A stretch of DNA of 33,456 nt from Candidatus Planktophila sp. (lineage in GTDB: Bacteria > Actinomycetota > Actinomycetes > Nanopelagicales > Nanopelagicaceae), in NCBI GenBank assembly GCA_030681675.1, contig JAUXRP010000002.1, forward strand, positions 69,178 through 102,633, in the 5' to 3' direction. The notes below the pieces were generated by a model. That model was not told the origin of the DNA. It searched no databases and saw only the letters and a program-made list of their open reading frames with translations. The stretch's first letter is position 1. Each line of letters opens with the position of its first letter. Shown here in pieces: positions 11,128 to 32,941 of this stretch. The position numbers and the translations under genes are program-made.

Positions 11128-12068
11128 TCGAGTTAGATTTTTCGACGACAATTGGTAATGCTTGGTTCCCCTCGCCAATCTTTACTGCCAGTGGATGTGC
11201 AAGCTCTGGTCGCGAATTAGCTCAATTTTTTCCACTTCATGATATAGGTGGAGTAGTCACAAAATCTGTTATGAACAAGGCACGTCATGGAAGGCCAACT
11301 CCACGCATGGCTGAAACACCAAGCGGAATGCTCAATTCAATTGGTCTGCAAGGACCTGGTATCGATGCCTTTATTGCTAAGGATATTCCTTACTTAATAG
11401 AGCAAAAAGCGCGCATTATTGTTTCAATAGCAGGAGAAACCGTTGAAGAGTACGCGACACTTGCTCGAAAGTTACGATCTGTTGCCGGAATTAGTGCGCT
11501 CGAGGTAAATATTTCCTGTCCAAATGTTGAAAACCGTGGACTTGTATTTGCTTGTGATCTAGATGCTTCCCGCAGAGTAATTGATAGCGTTCGTCGCACC
11601 ATCGGTGGCGATATTCCGATTATCGTCAAACTATCTCCTGATGTCACAGATTTAGTTGCTATCGCGCAAGGAGTTGTTGAATCTGGTGCCGATGCTTTAG
11701 CCCTCATTAATACTGTTCTTGGAATGGTTATAAATTTAGATACTTTGCGTCCGCATTTAGGCGGAAAGACTGGCGGCCTATCGGGTCCAGCAATCAGACC
11801 AATCGCGGTGCGTGCCGTATATCAAGTTCATGCAGCATTGCCAAAAACTCCAATACTCGGAATGGGAGGAATCTCTACAGGCCGTGATGCACTCGAAATG
11901 ATTGCCGCCGGGGCAAGTGCAGTATCAATTGGCACTGCCAGTTTTACAAATCCTACGGCGCTGATATCGGTTCAAAGTGAGTTAAAGGAGTTGTTGCGCG
12001 TTAAAGGTTTTGAATCGCTACGAGGAGCTGTTGGATTTGCCCATCGACCGGATGGAGTTGTGCAGTGA
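11124..12068 (+). CDS. pyrD: Dihydroorotate dehydrogenase, class 1B catalytic subunit
   Basis: Oxidises dihydroorotate to orotate with FMN. The ATG at 11124 overlaps the pyrK stop (ATGA) and gives 314 residues starting MIELDFSTTIGN; an upstream in-frame start at 11061 would sit inside pyrK. Visible are TASGCASSG, SIGLQGPG, the catalytic-loop ISCPNVENRG with C132 (cysteine as base is typical of class 1, serine of class 2), VKLSPDV, and the FMN phosphate-binding LGMGGISTGRDALEMIAAGASAVSIG. Short length and the pyrK partner make it NAD-linked 1B, unlike the membrane quinone-linked class 2 enzyme of mycobacteria. Confidence 0.95.
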   Translation: MIELDFSTTIGNAWFPSPIFTASGCASSGRELAQFFPLHDIGGVVTKSVMNKARHGRPTPRMAETPSGMLNSIGLQGPGIDAFIAKDIPYLIEQKARIIVSIAGETVEEYATLARKLRSVAGISALEVNISCPNVENRGLVFACDLDASRRVIDSVRRTIGGDIPIIVKLSPDVTDLVAIAQGVVESGADALALINTVLGMVINLDTLRPHLGGKTGGLSGPAIRPIAVRAVYQVHAALPKTPILGMGGISTGRDALEMIAAGASAVSIGTASFTNPTALISVQSELKELLRVKGFESLRGAVGFAHRPDGVVQ

Positions 12069-12772
12069 TGGAAACGAAGGCACCAATAGTTTTGGCCCTT
12101 GATACGCCCTATCTAGAAACTGCGATCGAGTGGATAGAGGCGACGCAGGGGGTTGTCTCTGTTTATAAATTAGGTTTGGAGTTCTATCTAACTTTCGGTA
12201 GGGATGGAGTAAAGAGAGTTCTTGATCATACAGACTCTGATATTTTTCTTGATTTAAAACTTCACGATATTCCACATACCGTGGGTGCGGCAGCGCTTGC
12301 GCTTTCAACACTTCAACCAAAGTATTTGACGGTTCATGCATCTGGCGGCCGTTCAATGATTGCGGCGGCCGTTGAGGCAACCCCATCTACCCATGTAACA
12401 GGCGTAACCATCTTGACATCTCTGTCTGAAAAAGATGTCCAAGAGATCGGTTTCAAGGAGAATGCATGTGAAAGTGCGGTTAAGTTAGCTTCGATTGCGG
12501 TTGGAGCTGGCGCGCGAGCTATCGTTTGTTCACCACTGGAAATAACTAATATTCGCGCCGCCATTGGCAATGGAGTAACGATTATTACTCCAGGTGTTCG
12601 TCCAACCAATGCGGCAATCTCTGATGACCAGGTGCGCACTCTGACACCGCGACAGGCAATTGAAAGAGGGGCAAACTTACTGGTAATTGGAAGACCCATC
12701 ACTAGTCAGTGGGTTAATGGTCCTACAGCCATGCGTGAGCGAGCAGTTGAAATTGCGCAGCAAATTCTTTGA
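12068..12772 (+). CDS. pyrF: Orotidine 5'-phosphate decarboxylase
   Basis: Decarboxylates OMP to UMP, the last step of the pathway; the preceding pyrE is not in the window and must lie elsewhere. The 234-residue protein has the catalytic D62-K64-D67 array in LDLKLHDIPHTV, TVHASGG near residue 94, and the C-terminal phosphate-binding PGVRP and LVIGRPIT. These are features of the short group I enzyme (E. coli/Bacillus type) rather than the longer group II enzyme common in high-GC Actinobacteria. GTG at 12065 (GTGA overlap with pyrD) is an alternative start three bases upstream. Confidence 0.95.
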   Translation: METKAPIVLALDTPYLETAIEWIEATQGVVSVYKLGLEFYLTFGRDGVKRVLDHTDSDIFLDLKLHDIPHTVGAAALALSTLQPKYLTVHASGGRSMIAAAVEATPSTHVTGVTILTSLSEKDVQEIGFKENACESAVKLASIAVGAGARAIVCSPLEITNIRAAIGNGVTIITPGVRPTNAAISDDQVRTLTPRQAIERGANLLVIGRPITSQWVNGPTAMRERAVEIAQQIL

Positions 12773-12788
12773 TTACAGTGTTGTACGT

Positions 12789-12794
12789 TAGATT
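12789..12794 (+). promoter_or_regulatory. -10 box for leaderless mihF-gmk transcript
   Basis: TAGATT (TANNNT form) ends six bases before the ATG at 12801, and no Shine-Dalgarno precedes that ATG. This spacing is the usual signature of leaderless transcription in Actinobacteria. No convincing -35 is visible in the 3' end of pyrF, so readthrough from the pyr operon is also possible. Confidence 0.45.
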
Positions 12795-12800
12795 TCAACC

Positions 12801-13673
12801 ATGGGCGCACCTCCACAACTCTCTCCCGAGGCACGCATGGCCGCCCTTGCTAAAGCTACGCAGTATCGCAAACGCCGTGCTGAAATAAAGGCGAAAATTA
12901 AACGTGGTGAGTTCTCAATTGACACTGTTCTAGAGATTGCAGCTAATGAAGATGCAGTTGCCAAGATGCGTGTTCGAGAGCTATTAGAGGCGTTGACCGG
13001 GGTCGGTAAAGTTCGTGCCAGCGCTTTGATGCAGCGCTTAAATATTTCGCCCAATCGCAGGATCGCAGGTCTTGGTCGCCATCAAATTAAAGAGCTGAGA
13101 GCTGAGTTTATGAAAACTTCGCATGCGGCTAAAGCTGGCAAACTCCTCGTCTTGTCTGGACCAGGGGGAGTCGGTAAGAGCACAGTGGCTACACGTTTGC
13201 GAAAATCCGGAGATTTTTGGGTTAGCATCTCAGCGACTACTCGTACACCTCGCACGAATGAACATGATGGCGTTGATTACTACTTTATCTCCGACGAAGA
13301 GTTTTCTCGAAGGGTTAGAAACGATGAGTTTCTGGAGTGGGCAGAGTTTGCTGGAAACAGATATGGAACTCCCAGCGCCGCCGTTAAAGAGGCGTTGTTG
13401 GCTGGGCGCAATGTTTTATTAGAGATTGAGATTGAGGGAGCCAAGCAGGTAAAGTCCCACGTCAATCAGGCGATTCTCGTTTTTCTTGAGCCACCTACGT
13501 GGGAAGAGTTGGTCTCTCGACTAGAGGGTCGTGGAACCGATACACCGGCCCGTCGTGCGGAGCGTTTACAGATCGCTCAGGACGAGCTTGCCGCAGCCTC
13601 ATTTTTCGATGTAGTGATCGTTAACGACGCAGTCGAGCGGGTTGTGGAGGAACTGATAGCATTGACCTCTTGA
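12801..13673 (+). CDS. gmk: Fused mIHF nucleoid protein - guanylate kinase
   Basis: Residues 1-105 match actinobacterial integration host factor (mIHF): the basic helix AALAKATQYRKRRAEIKAKI, then KMRVRELLEALTGVGKVRASALMQRL with the DNA-binding helix-two-turn-helix, and NRRIAGLGRHQ. Residues 112-290 are a complete guanylate kinase (GMP + ATP to GDP): P-loop GPGGVGKST at 120-128 (usually GPSGVGKS), GMP-binding SATTRTPR, VDYYFIS, EFLEWAEFAGNRYGT, and the lid RLEGRGTDTPARRAERL. There is no stop between the parts. In mycobacteria and Streptomyces mihF and gmk are separate neighbours. An internal ATG at 13110 (M104), preceded only by a weak GAG, could give free kinase. Both halves look intact. Confidence 0.93.
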   Translation: MGAPPQLSPEARMAALAKATQYRKRRAEIKAKIKRGEFSIDTVLEIAANEDAVAKMRVRELLEALTGVGKVRASALMQRLNISPNRRIAGLGRHQIKELRAEFMKTSHAAKAGKLLVLSGPGGVGKSTVATRLRKSGDFWVSISATTRTPRTNEHDGVDYYFISDEEFSRRVRNDEFLEWAEFAGNRYGTPSAAVKEALLAGRNVLLEIEIEGAKQVKSHVNQAILVFLEPPTWEELVSRLEGRGTDTPARRAERLQIAQDELAAASFFDVVIVNDAVERVVEELIALTS

Positions 13674-13708: not shown

Positions 13709-13957
13709 ATGGATGGCATTACAAATCCACCAATTGATGAGTTACTAGAGAAGAGCGGTTCTAAGTACAGCCTCGTTCTCTATGCGGCAAAGCGTGCACG
13801 TCAGATTAACGCCTATTACTCGCAGCTTGGTGAGGGTCTTCTTGAGTATGTCGGGCCACTTGTAGAGACGCATGTACACGAGAAGCCACTGTCTATCGCC
13901 CTTCGCGAGATAAACGAAGGCTTATTGGCGATCGAAAATTTAGAACCAACCGCTTAA
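13709..13957 (+). CDS. rpoZ: RNA polymerase omega subunit
   Basis: Omega binds beta-prime and assists RNA polymerase assembly. The 82-residue protein carries the actinobacterial omega core [32 protein letters not shown] (about residues 6-37; shown as landmark only) and ends with [16 protein letters not shown]. Length is close to the family norm. The gmk-rpoZ-coaBC-metK order is conserved in Actinobacteria and the gmk-rpoZ pair more widely. Confidence 0.95.
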
Positions 13958-16355: not shown

Positions 16356-18239
16356 GTGGCCATACCGAGCCGACTGCGTCTTAAGGCGCAGTTAATAGCT
16401 CGGCCCGAAGTGCGGGCAAGCTCAAAACCCTTTGCCAAGCTCTGGGTTGATAGCGGTGTCCCTCATCTAGATTCCCCTTTCGATTACGCCGTTCCATTAC
16501 AAATTTCCGATGAAGTTCAGGTCGGCGTTCGCGTTCAAGTTCCATTTAATGGGCGCGAAGTAGAAGCACTTGTTCTTGAGCGTTTAGATTCCACTCACGT
16601 CACGGGTGTTATTAAGGAGATTACGAAGCTCATATCGCCTCATCCCGTGGCTACCGTCGCCACTCTTGAACTTTTTGCGGCAGTTTCTCGGCATTGGGCA
16701 TGTAATCCCTTTGATATTGTCCGCTTTGCAATTCCTTCTCGCGTTGTAAGTGTTGATAAATCACTTTTAGCGCAACAACAACCAACCGTATTGAATTCTG
16801 TGAATACTGACTCTGATCGTTTTATCGCCTTTGAACCTGTGAGCGATCCGGCAGATCAATGCGCAGAGTTAATTCTTCAAAAGGCTCAAGTCGGTTCGGT
16901 ATTGGTAATAGCCCCCGATGAGAGCGATGTTGATGCAATTTGTGAGAGTTTAGAGAAATCCAGAGTGAAATACATACGTCTAGATAGTTCGCTCTCTCGT
17001 TCTGATAGATATTCGAACTTCCTTAAAACGCTTAGGTCATCAGATTGCATCGTAGTGGGGGCACGAAGCGCTGTTTTTGCGCCGATTCTAAATTTAAAAT
17101 GCGTGATCATGTATAAAGAGTCATCATTTGAGCACTTTGAGAAACGTAGCCCGGGTTGGAACGTTCGCGATGTGTTATCGCTAAGAAGTGGCATTGAAGG
17201 TTTTCAGAGAATTTATATGGGTTATGTTCCATCTTTGGATATCGCCTTGCTTATAGAAAATGCACAATTGAAATATATATTTCATTCACATCAATTGAAT
17301 GTAAAGGCATTTTCATCTAGTGACGGTGCGCTTCTTCCGGATCGAATCTTTAAGGAGATTCGCAAAGGGTTAAAGTTAGGACCGGTACTTTTCATCGTTC
17401 CACGTAAAGGCTATGGAAATGCGCTTTTGTGCGCCAATTGCAAAAATGTTGCTGTGTGCGCATGTGGATCACGGCTTGCAGTAACGAGTAAAAACGCGGA
17501 TCCTATCTGCCTCTTATGCCATACAACATATCTAGATTGGGCGTGTTCGTGGTGTCATGGTAGTAAACAATATTTGGGTTCGCGGGGTATAGACCGCGCA
17601 GGAGAGGAGATCTCGCGAGCTTTCCCAGGATTGCCTTTAATTCTCTCATTTGGCAATGTGATTAAAACAACTGTCGAAAATAGACCAGCTCTTGTTTTGG
17701 CGACCCCAGGTTCTGCGCCTAAAGTGAAATGGGGGTATGGGGCAGTAGTAATACTGGAAGGATGGAAATTTTTCGCTCATGCTGATTTGCGATCTCAAGA
17801 ACGTGCGCGCGAACTATTTTTCGAAACTGCAGCTATGGCTCGTGTCAACTCATCCGTGCTTTTGAGCATCGATGAAAGCTCTCCGATTGTTTCATCACTA
17901 GTGAGATGGAGTCCGGGGGCCATGATTCGTAGAGAGCTAAAAGAGAGATTGGAAGTTCCGCTCCCGCCATATGTATCAAGCGTTACTATTTCTGGAGATG
18001 CCAAGGAGTTCACATTAATTGCCACAGGCTTACGAAAGGCAATAGAAGATGGACGACTGCCAAGTGAGGTAAAAGTTTTCGGTCCGAATGATAAAGGTCG
18101 AAATATTGCACAAATTGTAATGTACTGTCCACGGGAAAAGAGAGCTGATTTAGCTGTTTTTTTACTCGAACTTGCGCGTCGACGTAGTATTGCTAAAAAG
18201 GAATATCTCACAATTAGATTTGATCCGTATTCGCTGTAA
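16356..18239 (+). CDS. priA: PriA-like primosomal protein, helicase motifs lost
   Basis: PriA restarts stalled replication forks. The 627-residue protein has the 3'-DNA-binding domain (VPHLDSPFDYAVP, VQVPFNGREVEALVLE), a degenerate helicase core, eight paired cysteines for two zincs at about residues 355-400 (CANC, CAC, CLLC, CSWC), and the C-terminal domain (LPPYVSSVTI). Where E. coli PriA has the Walker A GVTGSGKT this protein reads PVSDPADQ, and DEEH is replaced by MYKESSFEH, while neighbouring VGARSAVFAPILNL and W-xx-RD are kept. ATPase and helicase activity are therefore unlikely. This loss is known for actinobacterial PriA. It starts with GTG three bases after metK, probably coupled. 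Confidence 0.9.
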   Translation: MAIPSRLRLKAQLIARPEVRASSKPFAKLWVDSGVPHLDSPFDYAVPLQISDEVQVGVRVQVPFNGREVEALVLERLDSTHVTGVIKEITKLISPHPVATVATLELFAAVSRHWACNPFDIVRFAIPSRVVSVDKSLLAQQQPTVLNSVNTDSDRFIAFEPVSDPADQCAELILQKAQVGSVLVIAPDESDVDAICESLEKSRVKYIRLDSSLSRSDRYSNFLKTLRSSDCIVVGARSAVFAPILNLKCVIMYKESSFEHFEKRSPGWNVRDVLSLRSGIEGFQRIYMGYVPSLDIALLIENAQLKYIFHSHQLNVKAFSSSDGALLPDRIFKEIRKGLKLGPVLFIVPRKGYGNALLCANCKNVAVCACGSRLAVTSKNADPICLLCHTTYLDWACSWCHGSKQYLGSRGIDRAGEEISRAFPGLPLILSFGNVIKTTVENRPALVLATPGSAPKVKWGYGAVVILEGWKFFAHADLRSQERARELFFETAAMARVNSSVLLSIDESSPIVSSLVRWSPGAMIRRELKERLEVPLPPYVSSVTISGDAKEFTLIATGLRKAIEDGRLPSEVKVFGPNDKGRNIAQIVMYCPREKRADLAVFLLELARRRSIAKKEYLTIRFDPYSL

Positions 18240-31090: not shown

Positions 31091-32941
31091 TCAGGCAAAG
31101 AGCCCCTTCTCCTTTAATGCCGACTCTAACAATGGCATCAAATGAAGAGACATTGCTATCGAAATGTGTGACCTATCACGATAGGCGACGATGGAGTCCT
31201 TTATTGCCGGGCAGATATCGGTGCAGAGCCATGGAGTTGGGTCAATGACCTTAAAACCCGGGACTACTAGGTTTAGTGATTTTTCGGAGGTATCACATTC
31301 GAAGGCCTTTTGTGTGGCAAGGCACGAGGGGATATCTACTTTGGGGTGGGGAGTATCACTAATATAAATTAAGTTCTCACTTGCTCCCTTGAGTGAGTTG
31401 AGTAGTTTTATCTGACCATTCCTCCACCACAGTTCTGGATTTGGATATTTGTCTGGAGCTGAAAAGTACTGAAAACTACTCATGATTACGGCAATTGGTT
31501 TGATTTCATTAATCCGTTGATATGAGTATTTTCGCCACTGCGCGCAGTTTATATATTTGAATCCACCTCTATCATCCCTGGGAGCATCGACCGCTGGACA
31601 TGCTGATTTTGTAAGTGATACCAATTTAATTCCTCTTTTAATGGCGATTTTTTCAAGTGCAGGAAACCATTGTGCCGCGTGAGAATCACCATAAAGAACG
31701 ATAGTTTTTTTAGATTTGATATCCCCATATGTACAGTAACCAGATCTATTGCCTCTATGTGAAACGTGGCAACCATCGCCAACCACAATCGGTTTAGCTA
31801 CTACTTCGGCTAAATTAAAGGTAAAGGCGGTTTTGCCACTTGTTGATACTAGCGCTGGTACCGATGTTGAAATGAAAACCGCTAGCGCAAGGGAGGTTGC
31901 CGTCGTTGCTAAAGCCGCCAGATAGATCTTCTTTGGTGCAATCTTCATATGTCTAAGCGGCTCTTCTATAGCTCTGTTTGTAACATCGGCCAAAATCACG
32001 GTGAGAATAATGCACAAGAATCGCTCGAGAAGAGTTAAAGGGCGGCCAAGTGCGCTACTTGGAATAACTAATGCTGGCCAATGCCACAGATAGAGTGGAT
32101 AAGATATTTTTCCTAGCCATTGACTCACGCGATTATTTGATAAGTCATTTAGAATTGGCGGCCACTCTGCAATGGTTGCTATCAGAAGAGCGGTACCAAG
32201 GACTGGAAGAAGTGCATTGACTCCAGGAAATGCTGTTCCATCACTAAAACCAAATGATGCTACAAAAACTGCAGTCAACCCTACCCACGGGAGAAAGCGA
32301 TACGCAAAAAACCGTGACGGTATAAAGAGTAAGAGAGCCCCAACGCCTAATTCCCACGCTCGTGTAGATAGTGAATAGAAGGCCCAAATAGGTGAACTCT
32401 GAGTTTGATAAATCGAGAGTACGAGCGAGAGCGTAGTTATAGTTAAAACTCCATTTAATATAGCTCGCTTGCCTTTTCGCGCAAATACAATGAGGAGTAC
32501 AGGCCACACTAAGTAAAACTGTTCTTCAACTGCCAGCGACCAATAGTGAATAAATGGCGAAGGAGTAGCGTCGAGATTTTGATAATCATTTTCCCACCAT
32601 GCAAAAAGATAGTTCGAAATATATGTCGCAGCTGCAAAAAAATCTCGACCAAGCTCGTCACGATTTATTGAGGGTAAAACAAACCACGAGACTATTGCCG
32701 TTGCAAATAGAACAAAAATCGATGTTGGGAGAAGGCGCTTTATACGCCGTTGATAAAAAGCGGCGAGATCAAGTTTTCCAGTGGTATCCAATTCGCGCAG
32801 AATTAGGCCAGTAATAAGGTAACCCGAAATGACATAAAAAATATCAACACCAATGAATCCGCCAGGTACCAAACGAGCGTGGAACAGGGTAACTACTATT
32901 GCGGCAAAAGCTCTAAGACCTTGAATTTGTAAAACGCGCAC
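31091..32941 (-). CDS. Acyltransferase-3 with C-terminal SGNH domain (OafA/YrhL type)
   Basis: Membrane O-acyltransferase that typically acetylates cell-surface glycans. The 616 residues hold about ten transmembrane helices (1-360) with the family motifs IQGLRAFAAIVVTLFHA (H21), GGFIGVDIFYVISGYLI, FYQRRIKRLLP, IHYWSLAVEEQFYLVWP and KISYPLYLWHWP. The extracytoplasmic SGNH hydrolase domain follows: GDSHA at 418-422 holds the serine, and the late DRSHIS near 590 holds the Asp/His pair. It starts with GTG two bases after the apt stop, so the two are likely cotranscribed. The glycan target (peptidoglycan, polysaccharide or glycolipid) cannot be told from sequence. Confidence 0.92.
   Translation of the reverse strand: MRVLQIQGLRAFAAIVVTLFHARLVPGGFIGVDIFYVISGYLITGLILRELDTTGKLDLAAFYQRRIKRLLPTSIFVLFATAIVSWFVLPSINRDELGRDFFAAATYISNYLFAWWENDYQNLDATPSPFIHYWSLAVEEQFYLVWPVLLIVFARKGKRAILNGVLTITTLSLVLSIYQTQSSPIWAFYSLSTRAWELGVGALLLFIPSRFFAYRFLPWVGLTAVFVASFGFSDGTAFPGVNALLPVLGTALLIATIAEWPPILNDLSNNRVSQWLGKISYPLYLWHWPALVIPSSALGRPLTLLERFLCIILTVILADVTNRAIEEPLRHMKIAPKKIYLAALATTATSLALAVFISTSVPALVSTSGKTAFTFNLAEVVAKPIVVGDGCHVSHRGNRSGYCTYGDIKSKKTIVLYGDSHAAQWFPALEKIAIKRGIKLVSLTKSACPAVDAPRDDRGGFKYINCAQWRKYSYQRINEIKPIAVIMSSFQYFSAPDKYPNPELWWRNGQIKLLNSLKGASENLIYISDTPHPKVDIPSCLATQKAFECDTSEKSLNLVVPGFKVIDPTPWLCTDICPAIKDSIVAYRDRSHISIAMSLHLMPLLESALKEKGLFA

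Follow-up and report, generated by a model that had tools for sequence, protein, structure and literature searches.

The actinobacterial IHF proteins mIHF of Mycobacterium (Rv1388) and sIHF of Streptomyces (SCO1480) are free proteins of approximately 105–107 amino acids, and mycobacterial mIHF is reported to be an essential protein of the nucleoid (PMC6155035). Guanylate kinase (Gmk) has likewise been described as essential (PMC5686395). In Mycobacterium tuberculosis the genes follow the order mihF-gmk-rpoZ (PMC6155035), and most Actinomycetota, among them Streptomyces, Mycobacterium, Arthrobacter and Cellulomonas, carry mihF and gmk in this order but in separate frames. A search of open-access papers by titles and abstract openings returned no description of an mIHF-Gmk fusion, and passages of PMC6155035 do not mention one. 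Annotators may nevertheless know of it, given that the NCBIfam model for mIHF is typed as an equivalog domain.

In the 33,456-nucleotide stretch of Candidatus Planktophila sp. DNA analysed here (the window), mIHF and guanylate kinase share a single open frame of 290 residues that runs from an ATG to a TGA (Table 1). The front part scored 116.8 bits with the NCBIfam model actino_IHF (curated cut-off 60) and the back part 216.9 bits with guanyl_kin (curated equivalog cut-off 160.45). Pfam detected H2TH_5 at residues 33–103 (8.4e-24) and Guanylate_kin at residues 113–285 (1.5e-43), and in a sequence search of the PDB the structures of sIHF (4itq) and mIHF (6tob) matched residues 2–106 while Gmk structures matched the back part. 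The original prediction of a complete mIHF and a complete Gmk with no stop between them is therefore borne out, both families lying above their curated cut-offs, and the GVGKVRA motif, the internal ATG at 13110 and the GPGGVGKS P-loop that it had pointed out are all present in the sequence. Since an in-frame TAG (12789–12791) sits four codons upstream of the ATG, giving a stop-to-stop frame of 293 codons, the start codon is nearly forced. The source genome, a draft of 1.83 Mb in 46 contigs, gave one Gmk match and one mIHF match, and both are the fusion gene. As the fusion is the only mIHF and the only guanylate kinase of the cell, the full-length chain would have to supply both functions. A scan of viral contigs with the fusion protein found no relative, and on this basis we rejected a phage origin.

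Table 1 Features of the mIHF-Gmk fusion gene and its immediate neighbours. Positions are those of the window.
Feature	Position	Strand	Basis or remark
pyrF, upstream neighbour	12065..12772	+	OMPdecase 2.3e-39
TAGATT, -10-like hexamer placed for a leaderless transcript from the ATG	12789..12794	+	kept in near relatives
mIHF-Gmk fusion gene	12801..13673	+	290 aa, stop included
mIHF (actinobacterial IHF, H2TH) domain, residues 5-103	12813..13109	+	NF041260 5.2e-34; PF22525
Helix-two-turn-helix motif GVGKVRA, residues 67-73	12999..13019	+	read from sequence
RRIAGLG, residues 86-92 (RRxR-GLG motif)	13056..13076	+	Ala89; Arg/Lys in most split mIHFs
Linker MKTSHAAKA, residues 104-112, holds internal ATG 13110-13112	13110..13136	+	9 residues
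Guanylate kinase domain, residues 113-288	13137..13664	+	TIGR03263 1.6e-64; PF00625
P-loop GPGGVGK, residues 120-126	13158..13178	+	sequence, alignment
rpoZ, downstream neighbour	13709..13957	+	RNA_pol_Rpb6 9.7e-16

Compared with the described proteins, the mIHF part belongs to the same family as Rv1388 and SCO1480 (NF041260) and scores above its cut-off, but it forms the N-terminal third of a 290-residue enzyme, and Ala replaces the third basic residue of its RRxRGLG motif. The Gmk part is a complete catalytic domain with the signature residues of bacterial Gmk (TIGR03263; M. tuberculosis Rv1389, structure 1s4q) and differs from Rv1389 in the preceding mIHF domain and in its GPGGVGK P-loop. 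The Gly in this loop, which had been flagged as unusual, is indeed there. However, GPGGVGK occurs in 66 of 70 fused and 13 of 17 split loci of the order (near-copies included), so that the residue is a lineage trait without a tie to the fusion, and we reject it as a sign of catalysis altered by the fusion. Furthermore, phmmer hits to eukaryotic MAGUK proteins indicate another case in which the Gmk fold is a module of a longer protein. MAGUK guanylate-kinase-like domains are mostly inactive scaffolds, whereas the fusion keeps the Gmk signature residues.

The order mihF-gmk-rpoZ is shared with M. tuberculosis (PMC6155035); rpoZ starts 35 bases downstream of the fusion stop and is followed by coaBC and metK (names from Pfam hits). 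Synonymous variation declines toward the 3′ end of the fusion gene (13581–13670, codons 261–290), perhaps because of signals for rpoZ. Elsewhere in the window, a PriA-like protein (16356–18239) has its Pfam match (E up to 1e-5) confined to the 3′ DNA-binding domain and looks as if its helicase part were degenerate, and a protein encoded on the minus strand (31091–32941) combines acyltransferase-3 and SGNH domains.

To describe the distribution of the fusion, we scanned genomes of the order, the class and the phylum. In the order of the window (Nanopelagicales), 149 of 151 genomes gave an mIHF match, the two without one being 79 and 81% complete. Among the matches listed, 127 run on into Gmk (two of them, G362 and G390, are cut by contig ends) and 22 of the 149 have a free mIHF frame of 105–154 codons. 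In this sample the state is uniform within genera, nine being fused and six split (g203, g205, g206, g209, g211 and g213). In a second family (that of G225, 150 genomes), 148 genomes gave a Gmk match and 137 of these matches span mIHF into Gmk. No stop was seen in 112 of the 137. Inspection of 24 of the remaining 25 placed the stop after Gmk in every case, and the last (G724, locus L083) has one 309-codon frame with both domains. The other 11 genomes comprise a probable frameshift (G782), a contig break (G914) and nine with a lone Gmk. In a third family, 7 of 59 genomes are fused. Across 394 genomes of the class, the stop-free spanning matches listed all fall in these three families, and across 296 genomes of the phylum a single stop-free spanning match outside the class appeared among the matches listed (G265). 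It was confirmed as a single frame and represents one genome of another class, 82% complete.

The named loci, a biased sample formed by the best-scoring 80 of 434 confirmed stretches, comprise 19 fused and 61 split loci. Since all 12 named Microbacteriaceae loci in this set are fused (including Agreia, Curtobacterium, Cryobacterium, Leucobacter and Microbacterium), we take the second family to be Microbacteriaceae. The suggestion that similar long Gmk proteins may exist in other small-genome Actinobacteria, with Nanopelagicales and Microbacteriaceae as the groups to search, is supported (127/149 and 137/148, respectively). Seven further named fused loci are akin to the window: Ca. Planktophila, Ca. 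Nanopelagicaceae, IMCC26103 (CP015604, an acI-A4 strain; PMC5301498), three others and one labelled Bifidobacterium breve. The fusion of IMCC26103 has the same coordinates and score as that of G308, a genome of the window's genus. The latter (L188, a metagenome-assembled genome) carries a Planktophila-like fusion with 65% identity, and its title is likely a mislabelling. The loci of Micrococcaceae, Cellulomonadaceae, Streptomyces and Mycobacterium among the best 80 of 434 are split. A locus titled Candidatus Fonsibacter lacus (L224) has a split mIHF and Gmk and looks actinobacterial.

How the fusion may have arisen is suggested by three relatives of the order in which just one stop separates the two genes within a shared frame (L100, TAA; L101, TAG; L102, TAG); in L101 the TAG directly precedes the gmk ATG. 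In the phylum sample, at least 41 genomes have a spanning match that holds exactly one stop, counted irrespective of its place. Loss of a single in-frame stop is therefore the likely route. A maximum-likelihood tree of 93 Gmk domains showed seven changes between the fused and the split state, a count that cannot separate gain from loss. A constraint placing the fused genes of the order and of the second family in one clade was rejected (p-AU 2.4e-06), whereas a single clade of the fused genes of the order was not (p-AU 0.29). Within the order, the split genera that branch among fused ones may have separated the two genes again; alternatively, joining may have happened there more than once. The fused genes of the third family group, with support, with split members of the same family. 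If joining is likelier than re-splitting, the tree would imply three or more origins, plus another one should G265 hold. The fusion thus seems to have arisen several times; one ancient fusion followed by many later splits is formally possible. Since it recurs in many relatives, seemingly with several origins, the fusion is real and tolerated.

We put the probability at roughly three in four that the fusion was formed by stop loss and yields one chain with two working domains, the sole source of both mIHF and Gmk. According to this reading, mihF and gmk, neighbours in most Actinomycetota, would have been joined through loss of the intervening stop. In the clade of the window, a leaderless mRNA would be transcribed from the fusion gene's own -10 element and translated into one polypeptide of approximately 32 kDa, with two independently folded domains and a short flexible linker. 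The full-length chain would act both as DNA-binding protein and as GMP kinase, in a constant 1:1 ratio, and neither mIHF nor Gmk would regularly occur free. We infer that the protein stays uncut and that both activities are present. In Mycobacterium smegmatis, fusions of mIHF to fluorescent proteins or HaloTag replaced the essential native mIHF with wild-type growth, growth with Dendra2 being slightly slower (PMC10028186), which indicates that a large passenger on mIHF need not be harmful.

Two lines of evidence suggest that both parts are maintained. First, the uncorrected ratio of non-synonymous to synonymous differences was 0.20 for mIHF, 0.35 for the linker and 0.17 for Gmk across 25 genes of the genus, for which synonymous sites are near saturation, and 0.06, 0.08 and 0.05, respectively, in 19 close pairs. 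By this measure, all three segments are under purifying selection. Second, 33 alignment columns are invariant across 57 fused proteins, including P-loop residues and R23, R26, G69 and Q95 of mIHF, while R87, G90, L91 and G92 of mIHF are kept in 90% or more. The H2TH domain together with the Gly and RR-GLG-Q signature of mIHF is present in the fusion, and the model of this part is helical. The invariant Gmk residues are G120, P121, G125, K126, S144, R148, R151, Y160, E179, Y188, T190, E208, R240, R244, R255 and N275, some of which we take, from Gmk structures, to touch the substrate. The AlphaFold model (mean pLDDT 93.5, pTM 0.68) shows both domains with confidence, its lowest-confidence block is the linker (pLDDT 69 over residues 101–110), and its best match in the PDB is M. 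tuberculosis Gmk (1s4q).

Nevertheless, the mIHF half could have been weakened or lost for DNA binding and be kept mainly as a folding or regulatory extension of Gmk that is itself being lost. This idea draws on the third basic residue of RRxRGLG, which we take to be a DNA contact in mIHF and which is common, yet not defining, in the family model. In the window this position is Ala89 (codon 13065–13067), so that the complete motif is not present. Arg or Lys occupies it in 30 of 30 split loci of the phylum sample and in 12 of 12 of the class, whereas most fused mIHFs have Gln, Ala or Gly. Among the 84 tree rows counted, which leave out one row with an unreadable motif and the rows without mIHF, the residue is missing in 37 of 41 fused but only 10 of 43 split rows. 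However, the association reflects few independent events: there are five independent pairs, in which the trait went with the fusion in 2.5 and in the opposite direction in 0 on average (median p 0.25), and five pairs put significance out of reach. In addition, the split relatives of genus g205, nested among the fused ones, also lack the residue. The data are thus no more than suggestive of an association between fusion and loss of the third Arg.

A further argument for a dispensable mIHF half comes from the nine second-family genomes with a lone Gmk, which represent five genera (g339, g342, g393, g398 and g407; loci L145–L151 and L161). None of the nine yielded an mIHF above the cut-off, one giving a stray match with an E-value of 9.1e-4. 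Six of them are 99–100% complete, but three reach only 78–84%, and in the tree g342 and g407 have a Gmk that does not join the rest of the second family. A fused ancestor that later lost mIHF is therefore the likely history only for g339, g393 and g398. It is possible that these genomes represent a natural loss of a protein reported to be essential in mycobacteria. In L150, from a genome without mIHF, a low-complexity stretch rich in Ala, Thr and Pro precedes Gmk in the place of mIHF. Moreover, the mIHF part scored 56–79 bits in six fused proteins of other groups, one of them below the cut-off of 60, and its identity to the window is mostly lower than that of Gmk. The missing third basic residue and the nine genomes without mIHF hint, as far as sequences can tell, at relaxed DNA binding. 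On the other hand, the motif keeps its first two basic residues and the domain most of its H2TH signature positions, and mIHF is under purifying selection almost as strong as that on Gmk. We consider it unlikely, though a serious contender, that the mIHF half has lost or weakened its DNA binding and persists mainly as an extension of Gmk.

We also analysed the start signals, which bear on whether free Gmk is made beside the fused form, either by internal initiation at the ATG at 13110 or from an internal promoter. In Actinomycetota, leaderless genes are recognised by a -10 hexamer approximately 7–12 nucleotides upstream of the start codon and the lack of a Shine-Dalgarno sequence. A TANNNT hexamer precedes the fusion start in all 31 near relatives (L033–L062), at -12 in 30 and at -13 in one, while at any other offset between -40 and -6 it occurs in at most 5 of the 31. 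A Shine-Dalgarno-like tetramer before the fusion start was found in 0 of the 31. The fusion gene thus has the features of a leaderless gene, and the conserved hexamer without a Shine-Dalgarno sequence suggests that its mRNA is probably leaderless in the clade of the window. The TAG of the hexamer doubles as the in-frame stop and could be kept for that role, though not where the hexamer sits at -13 and the TAG is out of frame. Among the other fused genes of the order, the hexamer is present at -11 to -13 in 22 of 36 and missing in 14, and it is absent from all 18 second-family fused genes examined. As many fused genes lack it, a leaderless start does not come with the fusion in general.

Before the internal ATG (M104), the -10 hexamer was found in 0 of 29 relatives, as against 31 of 31 before the true start. 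M104 is kept in 25 of 25 genes of the closest clade, and a Shine-Dalgarno-like tetramer precedes it in 5 of 29 relatives. Synonymous variation showed no dip over codons 91–110, a stretch with only ten informative columns. For a wider view we used 92 fused genes, the set after removal of nine repeat loci and duplicate proteins. Here, as in the start-signal counts above, start codons were picked by rule (the ATG nearest the domain start, otherwise GTG or TTG), by which a few choices may err (for example in L071). An ATG, GTG or TTG lies within 26 codons upstream of the P-loop in 78 of the 92, while 14, from four groups, have none. Counting ATG alone, the order has one within this distance in 40 of its 67 fused genes, the second family in 2 of 18. 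A start codon with a Shine-Dalgarno-like tetramer was found in 22 of the 92, for which the chance level was not computed; these are 19 of 67 genes of the order, 1 of 18 of the second family and 2 of 6 of the third. Internal initiation is therefore possible in some species, the clade of the window included. As a general mechanism it is not borne out, given the missing hexamer, the 14 genes without a start codon and the lack of a synonymous dip, and the proposal that the ATG at 13110 could release free Gmk is not supported in this sense, the hexamer being absent in all 29 relatives and the start codon in many lineages. A regular mixture of fused and free Gmk appears rather improbable to us. With the start hexamer kept, the internal ATG devoid of one and no internal start codon in 14 of 92 genes, both functions probably come mainly from the full-length protein.

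The fusion might also be adaptive, in that tethering Gmk to DNA would place GMP-to-GDP conversion, or a nucleotide-sensing Gmk, on the nucleoid and let guanine-nucleotide or (p)ppGpp status alter the DNA binding of mIHF. The original prediction's GMP/GDP metabolism on the nucleoid is a possibility, but one to treat with caution in view of the putative DNA-contact Arg missing from most fused proteins and of the genomes without mIHF. Gmk is a (p)ppGpp target in some bacteria. The existence of several separate fused lineages and the retention of the fusion under selection would fit such a coupling. But the linker has few residues and little conservation, and the split lineages that branch among fused ones, like the genomes without mIHF, suggest that coupling is seemingly not indispensable. 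We hold a functional coupling to be improbable, and quite improbable its stronger form, a repeatedly evolved device in which Gmk rides on the nucleoid and its nucleotide or (p)ppGpp occupancy tunes the hold of mIHF on DNA. As the two genes are adjacent and often in the same frame, repeated joining is likely without any benefit, and we infer that what has preserved the fusion is tolerance within a compact operon rather than any mutual need of the two activities. Finally, that a sequencing or assembly error masks a stop or frameshift near 13105, the circumstance named in the original prediction as fatal to it, is practically out of the question, as is chance: the source genome is a draft of 46 contigs and the second-family genome G782 has a probable frameshift in its fusion gene, but all other listed species of the window's genus, single-contig genomes among them, have this frame open as well, and the fusion recurs in 127 genomes of the order and 137 of the second family.

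Both parts of the protein are members of known families; what is new here is the joined architecture, its breadth, its occurrence in separate lineages and its start signals. In two large actinobacterial groups, the sole mIHF forms the N-terminal portion of a GTP-synthesis enzyme. If the adaptive reading were true, chromosome architecture would be tied to GTP supply in dominant freshwater Actinomycetota and in Microbacteriaceae. Searches that expect an mIHF of 105 residues may miss the Microbacteriaceae form, which is the weakly scoring front of a Gmk, and essentiality or proteome data on ‘Gmk’ in fused species report on mIHF as well. The fusion makes it testable whether a nucleoid protein has to be plentiful, free to move and uncoupled from metabolism.
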